Assembly: GCA_021462845.1 (NCBI GenBank) | Contig: JAJTXU010000026.1 | Span: 1 to 32,690, forward strand | Length of the DNA: 32,690 nucleotides | Direction of reading: 5' to 3' | Origin: Anaerolineales bacterium | GTDB taxonomy: Bacteria; Chloroflexota; Anaerolineae; Anaerolineales; Villigracilaceae | In this document: piece after piece, positions 2,132 through 31,846 of the stretch | How the letters are laid out: the number at the start of each line of letters is the position of its first letter | Numbering within the stretch: the stretch's first letter is position 1 | Program-made: the position numbers and the translations under genes | Notes under the pieces: generated by a model | Told to the model about the DNA's origin: nothing | Seen by the model: only the letters and a program-made list of their open reading frames with translations | The model's database searches: none

Positions 2132-5128
2132 ATGACTAATCAAATCTCTCTTACTGTCAATGGTATTCAACATACCCTCGAAGCCAGGGCGAATGAAACG
2201 CTTTCAGATTTGCTGCGGTATCGTCTGCGGCTCACGGGGACAAAGATCGGCTGTGACGAAGCCGAGTGCGGCGCGTGTACTGTCCTCGTGGATGGCGAGC
2301 CTGTGGTCTCGTGCATTTACCCAGCCGAGCGGGCGGAGGGGAAGACGGTGGTGACGATTGAGGGATTGGGGAATGAATTTACCGCTAAGCACGCTAAGAA
2401 CGCAAAGGAGTTAGAAAAGAAAGAGGAAAGAAGAAAGAATCTTAGCGACACTTCGATAAAACTCAGTGCAAGTCTTCGCGCTCTTAGCGGTTTAAATGCT
2501 CTTCATCCCTTACAAGAAGCATTCGTGGAGCATGGCGCGGTACAGTGCGGATTTTGCATCCCTGGGCAGATTATGACGGCGTATGCGCTGCTCGAGCGGA
2601 ATCCGAATCCGACGAGGGATGAGGTGCGGTTTGCGTTGAAGGATACGCTGTGCCGTTGCGCGGGGTATCCGACGATTGAAAATGCGATTCTTGCGGCGGC
2701 AGAATCGTTGCGGACGGGTGAACCTGTCAGGAAGCCGAATATTCCCGATTCGATTCACGTTCATCAATCGGTGGGACATACGCATCGGCGACCGGATGGG
2801 ATTGAGAAAGTCAATGGTCAGGCGATATACACCGATGACCTTGTCTTCGATAACATGTTATTCGCAAAAGTAAAACGCGCGATGATTCCGCATGGGTTCT
2901 TGAAGAGACTCGATGTTTCAAAAGCCAAAGAGTTGAAAGGTGTTGTCGCCATATTAACTGCCGAAGATATTCCTGCTGAAAGGAATCATGGACTGATCGT
3001 CTACGATTGGCCCGTGATGGTGGGTGTTGGAGAACGCGTCCGCTATGTGGGGGATGCGATCGCGCTCGTAGCGGCGGAAACGCTTGAGATTGCGAATCAG
3101 GCGTCGGCGTTGATCGAAGCGGAGTTCGACCTCCAGCCTGTCATCACAAATCCCGTGATGGCGCGTGAGGATGGAGTCCCACAAATTCACGAAAAGGGAA
3201 ACTTGCTCAAGCACATCAAAGTCCGCAAGGGCGATATGGAAAAAGGATTCGCCGAGTCGGATGTGATTCTCGAACATACATTTCATACGCCGACGTATGA
3301 CCACGCGTTTATTGAGCCTGAATGTAGTATCGGCGTGCCGTTGCCCGATGGGCGCATGGAAATTTATTGCGGTTCGCAAATTCCGTATCAGGATCGAACG
3401 CAAGTGGCGCGTGTGATGGGTTGGGATGAGTCGCGCGTGCGCGTTGTGGGACAGCTGATGGGCGGAGGCTTCGGCGGCAAAGAAGATGTGATGGGACAGA
3501 TCCACGTGGCGATGCTGGCGGACGTGACGAAGCGACCAGTGAAACTGCTGTTCGACCGTCATGAAAGTTTGCTCGTGCATCCGAAGCGGCACGCGACGCA
3601 GATCCGAATCAAGATTGGCGCGAAAAAAGATGGACGCATTATGGCGAGCGAGTCTGAGCTGTATGGCGACACGGGCGCGTATGCGTCGCTCGGCGAAAAA
3701 GTGATGACCCGCGCCACCACGCACTCGGCGGGTCCGTATGATGTGCCGAATGTGCGCGCCGATTGCTACGCCATGTACACCAACAACCCGCCTGCGGGTG
3801 CGTTCCGTGGATTCGGCGTGACGCAATCGGCGTTCGCGGTCGAGTCGATGATGGATATGCTCGCCGAGAAGTTGAACATCGAGCCTGTTGAACTGCGTCG
3901 CATCAACGCGCTGCATGTCGGGAGCATCACCAACACGGGACAGGAGTTGCGCGAGTCGGTGGGATTGATGGAGTGCATTGATAAAGTGTCAAGCGCCATG
4001 TGTCAGGTTTCAGGTTTGTCGGAGAAGGATTTGTTTAAGCCGAGAGTAGTTTCTGATGTTGACGAAGTGGACTTAACCGCTAAGCACGCGAAGAGGAAAG
4101 AAGAAAGAAGAAAGAATCTTAGCGGGCTTCGCGGTCTTAGCGGTTCAAATTATCTTGTTAGAGCATGGGGCTTTGCCGCCGCTTACAAGAACACGGGTCT
4201 CGGTGGCGGCGCGCCCGATATATCCAACGCGGAAGTTGAGTTGTACGATAACGGCATGTTCGAAGTGCGGAGCTCGTCCGCCGAAATGGGGCAGGGACTC
4301 GTCACCGTCATGCGCCTCACTGTCGCGGAGGAAATGTCTGTCCCTCCTGAGCAGGTCAACGTGTTGGTGATGGATACGGATTTGACTCCGAACGGAGGTC
4401 CGACGACCGCATCGCGTCAAACGTTTGTGACGGGGAATGCCTCGCGGTATGCTGCGAAGACTTTGCGCGATGCGATTACAGCGACGCTCGCTGAAAAATA
4501 TGACGTCAAGCCTGAGCAGATTCGTTTTGAAAATGGAATCGTCCACGCCAATGGACATTCGATGACATATGCCGAAGTCGCAAAAGAAATGAAAGCGATG
4601 GGACAACATCCGCGCGCGTTGTACGAATACGAAGCGCCGAAGACTCAACCTCTTGGCACAGGCGGCGACATGCACTTCGCCTTCTCGTTCGGCGTGCAAG
4701 CCGCCGAAGTGGAAGTGAATAAGTTGACGGGCGAAGTGCGCGTGCTGAGAGTCATCTCTGCCAATGACGTGGGCATGGCGGTCAATCCGCTGGGCTTGCA
4801 GGGACAAGTCGAGGGCGGCGTGATGATGGGGCTCGGCAACGCCATCACCGAAGAATTCCTCATGGACAATGGCTATGTGGTGAGTGACCGTCTGGCGCGT
4901 TATCGCATCCCTGGGATTATGCTCACGCCTGAGATCACGTCCATTATCGTGGAGCATCCCACCGCGGCGGGACCGTATGGCGCGAAGGGAGTTGGCGAGA
5001 TATGCAGTATCCCAACCACGCCCGCGATCACGAATGCGATTTATAATGCAGTGGGTGTGAGGGTGGATAAGTTACCAGTGGATCAGGAGTCCATTGCGCG
5101 GGAGATATGGGAGAGGGAGGAGAAATAG
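2132..5128 (+). CDS. Fused [2Fe-2S] + molybdopterin-binding subunit, xanthine dehydrogenase/aldehyde oxidase family, with two apparent in-frame repeat insertions
   Basis: CDEAECGACTVLVDG and CGFCIPGQIM...CRCAGYPTIENAI cluster motifs; GGGFGGKEDV, GAFRGFGVTQ and GAKGVGEICSIPTTPAI Mo-domain motifs; 998 aa single ORF. Confidence 0.88.
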   Translation: MTNQISLTVNGIQHTLEARANETLSDLLRYRLRLTGTKIGCDEAECGACTVLVDGEPVVSCIYPAERAEGKTVVTIEGLGNEFTAKHAKNAKELEKKEERRKNLSDTSIKLSASLRALSGLNALHPLQEAFVEHGAVQCGFCIPGQIMTAYALLERNPNPTRDEVRFALKDTLCRCAGYPTIENAILAAAESLRTGEPVRKPNIPDSIHVHQSVGHTHRRPDGIEKVNGQAIYTDDLVFDNMLFAKVKRAMIPHGFLKRLDVSKAKELKGVVAILTAEDIPAERNHGLIVYDWPVMVGVGERVRYVGDAIALVAAETLEIANQASALIEAEFDLQPVITNPVMAREDGVPQIHEKGNLLKHIKVRKGDMEKGFAESDVILEHTFHTPTYDHAFIEPECSIGVPLPDGRMEIYCGSQIPYQDRTQVARVMGWDESRVRVVGQLMGGGFGGKEDVMGQIHVAMLADVTKRPVKLLFDRHESLLVHPKRHATQIRIKIGAKKDGRIMASESELYGDTGAYASLGEKVMTRATTHSAGPYDVPNVRADCYAMYTNNPPAGAFRGFGVTQSAFAVESMMDMLAEKLNIEPVELRRINALHVGSITNTGQELRESVGLMECIDKVSSAMCQVSGLSEKDLFKPRVVSDVDEVDLTAKHAKRKEERRKNLSGLRGLSGSNYLVRAWGFAAAYKNTGLGGGAPDISNAEVELYDNGMFEVRSSSAEMGQGLVTVMRLTVAEEMSVPPEQVNVLVMDTDLTPNGGPTTASRQTFVTGNASRYAAKTLRDAITATLAEKYDVKPEQIRFENGIVHANGHSMTYAEVAKEMKAMGQHPRALYEYEAPKTQPLGTGGDMHFAFSFGVQAAEVEVNKLTGEVRVLRVISANDVGMAVNPLGLQGQVEGGVMMGLGNAITEEFLMDNGYVVSDRLARYRIPGIMLTPEITSIIVEHPTAAGPYGAKGVGEICSIPTTPAITNAIYNAVGVRVDKLPVDQESIAREIWEREEK
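2379..2494 (+). repeat. In-frame palindromic repeat insertion, copy 1, in the Mo-hydroxylase ORF
   Basis: ttaccgctaagcacgctaag...cttcgcgctcttagcggttta, translated TAKHAKNAKELEKKEERRKNLSDTSIKLSASLRALSGL. Confidence 0.88.
4073..4150 (+). repeat. In-frame palindromic repeat insertion, copy 2, in the Mo-hydroxylase ORF
   Basis: ttaaccgctaagcacgcgaag...cttagcgggcttcgcggtcttagcggttcaa, translated LTAKHAKRKEERRKNLSGLRGLSGS. Confidence 0.9.
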
Positions 5129-18217: not shown

Positions 18218-18437
18218 ATCATTAGTGGAAAGTGGAAGGTAGAAAGTAGAAAGTAGAAGGTAGCAAGCATGCCCGAGTTAAGTCGAAGGGTAGCGAGTAG
18301 AATCTACCCACCACTTTCCACTTTCTATCTCGCCCTCCTCAATCCTCTAATCCTCTAATTCTCTGCTCTTCCAGTCTCCAATCTCCAGTCTCCAATCTCT
18401 CCTCCTCATGCCCATCTCTCCCACTTCTCTAATTCTC
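18218..18437. repeat. Composite word-repeat array (GTGGAAAGTAGAAA / CCACTTTCCACTTTC / CAATCCTCTAATTCTC / CAGTCTCCAATCTC)
   Basis: Tandem quasi-periodic words read directly; runs into the start of the 18408 ORF. Confidence 0.85.
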
Positions 18438-27292: not shown

Positions 27293-27332
27293 ATCAGTGA
27301 GCAGTAATTGGTAATTGGTAATTGGTAATTGG
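27293..27332. repeat. (TAATTGG)4 array with adjacent TCAGTGAGCAGT word
   Basis: tatcagtgagcagtaattggtaattggtaattggtaattgg directly abutting the sulfotransferase stop codon. Confidence 0.85.
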
Positions 27333-30907: not shown

Positions 30908-30990
30908 GATGAGTTACAAGTTGCGAGTTACGTTAATCGTACTGCGTATTGCGTATTGCGTAATCGTAAATCGAGAATCGTAAATCTAAA
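30908..30990. repeat. Composite word-repeat array between the GT2 and DUF115 genes
   Basis: gagttacaagttgcgagttacg + tactgcgtattgcgtattgcgtaa + tcgtaaatcgagaatcgtaaatc. Confidence 0.85.
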
Positions 30991-31846
30991 ATAGTGAGTC
31001 GTATTCTACTTTCGGAAAAATCGTCAGCTTGCCTCCGACCGTCGCGTCAACCACTTCGCGCCCTGCTTTGCGATAGGCATCATGCGCAAGTGCATACCCG
31101 ATCTCGGAGGTATCCAGGTCAGGCAGTTGCCATTTCACGCCTTTGCCAAAATAATTCGGCATGAAATGATTCGGATCGTCGCCTTGCGAAACGACGGTTT
31201 TGTTCGCATCGCCTTTGTCGGCAAAATTGTGATCCACGCCGATGAGGATGGCTTTCTCGATGCCCATATGAAACGCAAGTTGGAGCGCGAGATTGGTCAC
31301 GGTCGCGCCCTCCCACACTCGCCCGCGGACATCTCTTGCAAAGCGAGGTCCTGTGTAGGTGGTGTAGATGAAGGTTGGGAGAGAAGAGATTGGAGATTGG
31401 AGACTGGAGACTGAGCGCTCGAGAATTGGAGGATTAGAGAATTGGGATTTAAAATGTTGGCGTGATCGCCAGGCGATGAATTTTGGGATGGTCAGCGCGG
31501 AGATGTCGTTTACGAATTGCTCGACGACGAGATCGTTCGTCACGCAGAGGTAGGATGTGGTGAATCCCCATTCGGGGAACGCGAGATAGATTCGGTTCAT
31601 GCCGAAGGTGATCTCGTTCTTCAATTTGCTCGTGTCGGTCTGCTTGAGGCTGGGACCGTTGCCGATGATGAAGGCGCGTTTCTCCTTGTGGATATTTTTC
31701 ATTTCGGCAAGCCGGCGAATACTTTCCCTGCGCCACGGATGCAAGTAGGCGGCGGGCAATTCAGGCACACGTCGGAGCGAATCGTATGCATCCCGTGTGA
31801 AACGCCAAAGCGATTGTGGAATCAACGATTTGAGAGTTTGTTTCAT
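30986..31846 (-). CDS. DUF115 / MptE-like glycosyltransferase-type protein with an in-frame word-repeat insertion
   Basis: RAFIIGNGPSLKQTDTSKLKNEITFGMNRIYLAFPEWGFTTSYLCVTNDLV; GRVWEGATVTNLALQLAFHMGIEKAILIGVDHNFADKG. Start ATG at 31846 (MKQTLKSLIPQSLWRF). Confidence 0.75.
   Translation of the reverse strand: MKQTLKSLIPQSLWRFTRDAYDSLRRVPELPAAYLHPWRRESIRRLAEMKNIHKEKRAFIIGNGPSLKQTDTSKLKNEITFGMNRIYLAFPEWGFTTSYLCVTNDLVVEQFVNDISALTIPKFIAWRSRQHFKSQFSNPPILERSVSSLQSPISSLPTFIYTTYTGPRFARDVRGRVWEGATVTNLALQLAFHMGIEKAILIGVDHNFADKGDANKTVVSQGDDPNHFMPNYFGKGVKWQLPDLDTSEIGYALAHDAYRKAGREVVDATVGGKLTIFPKVEYDSLF
31378..31452 (-). repeat. In-frame word-repeat array inside the DUF115 CDS
   Basis: Minus strand aatcccaattctctaatcctccaattctcgagcgctcagtctccagtctccaatctccaatctcttctc; same words as 18340-18402. 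Confidence 0.85.

Follow-up and report, generated by a model that had tools for sequence, protein, structure and literature searches.

A degenerate heptanucleotide array in frame within a loop of an MptE-like (DUF115) protein of an Anaerolineales bacterium

How does a tandem repeat of a mostly extragenic type come to lie, in frame, within a conserved gene? The question is raised by a minus-strand gene in a 32,690-nucleotide stretch of Anaerolineales DNA (the window), in which a reading made from the sequence alone had proposed that an array of repeated words is translated inside a DUF115/MptE-like protein. Sequence, frame and coordinates of the array were found to be as claimed. The gene and its array are as follows.

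30986..31846, minus strand: MptE-like/DUF115 protein gene (PF01973), 286 aa, host of the array
31382..31450, minus strand: in-frame word-array loop, residues 134-156 (KSQFSNPPILERSVSSLQSPISS), delimited by sequence, orthologue comparison and the lowest-pLDDT block
31386..31413, minus strand: TCTCCAR heptamer core (peptide SSLQSPIS), TRF period 7 with 95% matches
about 31421..31444, minus strand: AATTCTC/AATCCTC-type words (peptide QFSNPPIL), read from the sequence

The host protein scored 41.6 bits against PF01973 in Pfam, above the gathering cut-off of 34.6. Its best fold matches in Foldseek were the Maf glycosyltransferase 5mu5 and the archaeal HPPK/MptE protein 8sd5; domain and fold are those of the MptE-like/DUF115 and Maf glycosyltransferase family (PF01973), to whose fold the loop array does not belong. 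The fold is also weakly like that of sialyltransferases, and a sequence search of the PDB returned a weak sialyltransferase match alone (E 0.16). Orthologues are present in 143 of the 152 genomes of the family, and the GNGPS and WEGATVT motifs are invariant in 72 aligned sequences. The gene belongs to a run of glycosyltransferase and polysaccharide-type genes (names taken from translations), and the host is probably a glycosyltransferase-like enzyme of a polysaccharide locus.

In the coding direction the array has AATTCTC-type words first and TCTCCAR words next, in units of about 7 bases. In the AlphaFold2 model (mean pLDDT 89.7) the insert forms the loop between helix 127-137 and strand 159-161, and residues 141-150 are the lowest block, at 52. 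Inverted repeats of at least 8 nt were absent from 31330-31500, and the idea that the array is palindromic or a MITE was rejected. The RNA fold of the array was weak (-2.5 kcal/mol) and without significance, and a structured RNA was rejected.

Elements of a MITE-like kind do occur elsewhere in the window. The xanthine dehydrogenase-type gene at 2132-5128 carries two such inserts in frame (2381-2491 and 4075-4145), with 19-nt inverted ends ACCGCTAAG...CTTAGCGGT and the translation TAKHAKNAK...; their half-site pattern had 41 matches in the genome against 0 for the control. At the first insert site (2381-2491), congeners hold other repeats, e.g. the palindromic CCCTCTCCC..GGGAGAGGG, or almost nothing.

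The level at which the repetition arose was read from the pooled loops. At lag 7, base identity was 0.478, compared with 0.292 for codon shuffles (z 20.5), and lags 8, 14 and 15 were raised (z about 10), these z values, like the p values below, being overstated because orthologues are related. Lags 3, 6 and 9 were not raised. The repetition therefore arose in DNA, and a peptide-level repeat is ruled out. Every loop length is divisible by 3. Since 7 is not a multiple of 3, a pure array encodes the identical heptapeptide whichever of a strand's three frames is read, and its stop content is therefore set by word and strand. None of the six frames of TCTCCAR holds a stop (SPISNLQ/SPVSSLQ and LEIGDWR/LETGDWR), and genes carry its arrays in either orientation. 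For CAATTAC, CATCCTT, ATCAGTC and AATTCTC just one strand is open, the one seen in the loops read. Openness is not special in itself, as a given strand is open in 69% of all cyclic heptamer classes.

Further arrays were found in the window, among them the intergenic array with the same words that the sequence-only reading had pointed to; it lies between two ORFs.

18336..18399, plus strand: intergenic array with the AATTCTC and TCTCCAR word families of the host (TRF period 7/8/14; sequence)
18224..18267, plus strand: intergenic heptamer array of the word AGTAGAA, neighbour of the preceding array (TRF)
27304..27332, minus strand: intergenic CAATTAC array (TRF), with CAATTACCAATTACC matches at 27310 and 27317
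30938..30962, minus strand: heptamer array CGTATTG/CAATACG, directly downstream of the host gene (TRF)

In the 4.17 Mb genome, the 17-base two-unit TCTCCAR pattern CTCCARTCTCCARTCTC had 82 exact matches against 0 for the reversed control; the array is therefore not a product of chance. Stretches around the matches were merged into 55 clusters and the flanking frames scored by codon usage, the counts resting on pattern searches, 49 fetched stretches and the window. Thirty-seven of the 55 clusters are not within a frame that is coding on both sides. The arrays are thus predominantly extragenic, and the host gene bears out the idea of a mostly extragenic element that is here coding, in frame in a conserved gene. 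The word "recruited", used in that reading, is to be taken as inserted, tolerated and presumably translated. The other 18 clusters, distributed over 17 genes, are enclosed by frames that are coding-like on both sides, so that the window's genome holds at least 18 arrays within coding sequences; arrays of TrpS and Pth were left out because they precede the likely start. The array falls within a Pfam domain span in 12 of the 17 genes, and two large proteins have no Pfam domain over it.

Within the domain span: EPSP synthase AroA, glycyl-tRNA synthetase beta (GlyS), QueA, URO-D, SpoU methylase, GHMP kinase, FemAB, short-chain dehydrogenase, two glycosyltransferases, DUF2298 and the window's MptE-like gene
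Between domains: MutL, MocA-type oxidoreductase, G5-domain protein

Compared with the best solved AroA, the AroA insert lies between two aligned blocks, and QueA has extra residues at the array position relative to 1vky. Among the matches listed for a 24-base TCTCCAR pattern, most were Chloroflexota/Anaerolineae records, with others scattered in Cyanobacteria, Bacteroidota, Verrucomicrobiota and other groups.

What the same loop holds in relatives was read in 75 orthologues of the host gene. Most often the loop is short, measuring 22 aa from KFIAW to the FxYT strand, and CAATTAC- or CAATTGC-like words frequently encode it; the loop of the window's gene is about 15 aa longer. The CAATTAC word of the intergenic array at 27304..27332 fills the loop in many orthologues. 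A distant orthologue group has an even shorter loop without words (QRMPEDM). The expectation that orthologues would run directly from the SR..F block to FIYTTYTGP was borne out by these distant sequences, which pass almost directly from AWxSxRHF to FLYTTYTGP (e.g. AWHSNRHFQRMPEDMIFLYTTYTGP). An SSLQSPISSL-like peptide free of the nucleotide words was not encountered, as L032, L033 and L049 all carry them. Longer loops hold arrays of various words, distributed as follows.

AATTCTC and TCTCCAR: window, L032, L033, L049
CAATTAC, interrupted by a CCTTCGACAGGCTCAGGGC element: L034, L057
ATCAGTC/ATCAGTG: L137, L138, L155
CATCAGC and CATTCTC: L139
CATCCTT: L120
CACCAAC: L133, L135, L154
AACGTT: L142, L156
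CCTGAAA: L148

A tree from which the loop had been left out required 14 changes among 9 loop states, with a minimum of 8; this is a quick tree with many weak branches. A frame break in G095 was not scored as array damage because it falls just after the loop. The CCTTCGACAGGCTCAGGGC-type element also lies in frame within or beside word arrays, in the DUF115 loop of L034 and L057 and in the DUF2298 gene of L100.

These loops bear on the main rival account, growth in situ, by which a chance CAATTAC-like repeat in the ancestral loop (from the QLPITQLP motif) would have given rise to all arrays through local slippage and point mutation. Three CAATTAC- or CAATTGC-like words stand in the short loop of most orthologues, and the CAATTAC words of many short loops fall on the conserved QLPITQLP motif, so that local seeding is possible; mixed arrays, in which ATCAGTC words precede CAATTAC words (L137, L138), resemble additions beside an old seed. 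However, the unrelated families CATCCTT, AACGTTC, CCTGAAA and CACCAAC share the one loop site. The tested loop words are, moreover, those abundant elsewhere in each genome. Four words (TCTCCAR, ATCAGTN, CAATTAC and CATCCTT) were counted in 44 genomes, and the loop word was commoner in carrier genomes for TCTCCAR (p=0.002), ATCAGTN (p=0.009) and CAATTAC (p=0.003), each p value drawing on between 4 and 11 carrier genomes, close kin among them. The CATCCTT count was highest in G128, its only loop carrier. G132, G142 and G140, with 0 to 4 matches in total for the four words, have short loops; G020 has a TCTCCAR loop yet few such words genome-wide (9). Slippage alone would not yield genome-matched words, and growth in situ is therefore unlikely as the sole process.

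Word switching at the loop, as in the DUF115 gene, was also seen in orthologues of AroA, QueA and MutL. The QueA loops of congeners, which range from one without words to arrays of TCTCCA, ATGGTCA and AATCGAA, likewise speak against growth in situ.

QueA loop without words: L200
CAATTAC: L202
TCTCCAR: L199, L201
ATGGTCA-type: L205
AATCGAA/AATCGCA: L206, L208, L209
GATCACTG-type: L207, L209, L211

In the MutL gene of G023 (L235/L236), the frame is broken just after a ATCAGTTA-type array in the linker, which may reflect either a true frameshift or a fault of the assembly.

Pairwise dN/dS of array-bearing genes was 0.09-0.18, and the host genes are therefore maintained. Together with intact frames, these low whole-gene values argue against an assembly artefact or a misread frame, a suspicion that the 362-contig draft state of the window's genome invites. 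Most of the genomes compared are drafts; arrays recur at this loop in many independent assemblies, among which G011 consists of one contig and G014 of two. The independent assemblies rule out an artefact of assembly, and this class of explanation is to be regarded as extremely improbable. Selection for the loop itself, as a flexible linker, for surface display or for variation of activity, could be suspected from the recurrence of arrays at the same loops of several proteins, always in frame. The peptides are, however, unrelated between species, orthologues without an array are common and conserved, and the enzymes affected are unrelated. The loop is of low confidence in the model, and tolerance accounts for the pattern; functional recruitment is thus quite improbable.

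Presence of the arrays, a frame compatible with translation, recurrence at the same sites, turnover of words and purifying selection on the hosts were all observed, and the genome and its relatives hold many heptamer arrays with species-specific word sets. We use the term STRR-like for these arrays, after the heptanucleotide tandem repeats (STRRs) of cyanobacteria. In the reading that we consider probable, the insert is a degenerate STRR-like heptamer array in a tolerant surface loop, which entered by copying or template switching and was filtered by selection, its peptide being most likely passive. Arrays would be copied or template-switched into sites and not only grown from local sequence, with short shared motifs or microhomologies such as CCAAT possibly aiding entry; afterwards they would change through slippage and point mutation. 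Selection would purge arrays causing a frameshift, containing stops or falling in structured parts, and the survivors would be in-frame, stop-free arrays in flexible loops. Among the genomes compared no copying event was caught, neither as a donor-recipient pair nor as a target-site duplication. A bolder proposal, which we offer tentatively, is that active copying at the DNA level (template switching or conversion at CCAAT-like motifs) moves arrays and, time and again, substitutes words particular to each species for peptide loops of housekeeping enzymes.

The arrays were compared with two kinds of known element. According to work cited in PMC4679880, heptamers are, among longer simple repeats, the most abundant class in the majority of the prokaryotic genomes that have been surveyed. 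TAACTGA repeats are described in Beggiatoaceae, Cyanobacteria and Bacteroidetes (PMC4679880), and GGGAATC-type repeats in Xanthomonas and Nostoc (PMC4692102). As described there, they are degenerate 7-base tandem units, dispersed, mostly extragenic and of mixed families, as here (PMC4679880, PMC4692102), and the present arrays showed the STRR-like traits of tandem 7-base units (TRF, lags 7 and 14), dispersal and mostly extragenic position. The family ATCAGTT (TCAGTTA) found here is the reverse complement of the TAACTGA repeat, of which, according to PMC4679880, one orientation is translatable (LSVISYQ) and a few sets lie inside ORFs. The heptamers of these papers are placed mainly between genes, with few coding cases described (small hypothetical proteins and one ORF-internal set; PMC4679880, PMC4692102); unlike them, the present arrays lie in conserved enzymes, at recurrent loops, with words replaced between relatives.

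Rickettsia palindromic elements (RPEs), as summarised in PMC10969869, are in-frame selfish DNA in conserved genes. Like the arrays here they are also extragenic, stand in frame in unrelated conserved genes and are structurally tolerated (PMC10969869). By the same account they are palindromes of about 150 bp with a conserved peptide of their own, whereas the present arrays have neither an inverted repeat nor a fixed peptide. In-frame insertion in unrelated conserved genes was found (17 genes) and palindromic structure was absent; the arrays thus behave like RPEs but are not RPEs. In the searchable literature, with STRR papers in subscription journals outside its scope, no description was found of heptamer arrays that succeed one another in the loops of housekeeping enzymes, and the literature searched held nothing on heptanucleotide or tandem repeats in Anaerolineae. 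Each of the two phenomena, heptamer repeats and in-frame selfish elements, is known; their combination was not found described.

The origin and effects of heptamer repeats are poorly understood. Orthologous sites with several word families and array-free alleles, in genes under purifying selection, offer a natural experiment on the passage of junk DNA into protein; they allow a comparative test of whether arrays spread by copying or by slippage, and map the protein loops that tolerate inserts. For annotation, peptides such as SPISNLQ, QLPITNY, SVISDQ, FILHPSS or LETGDWR in bacterial proteins may be translated intergenic repeats. If arrays are indeed actively copied, the process would amount to a natural programme of loop-insertion mutagenesis.
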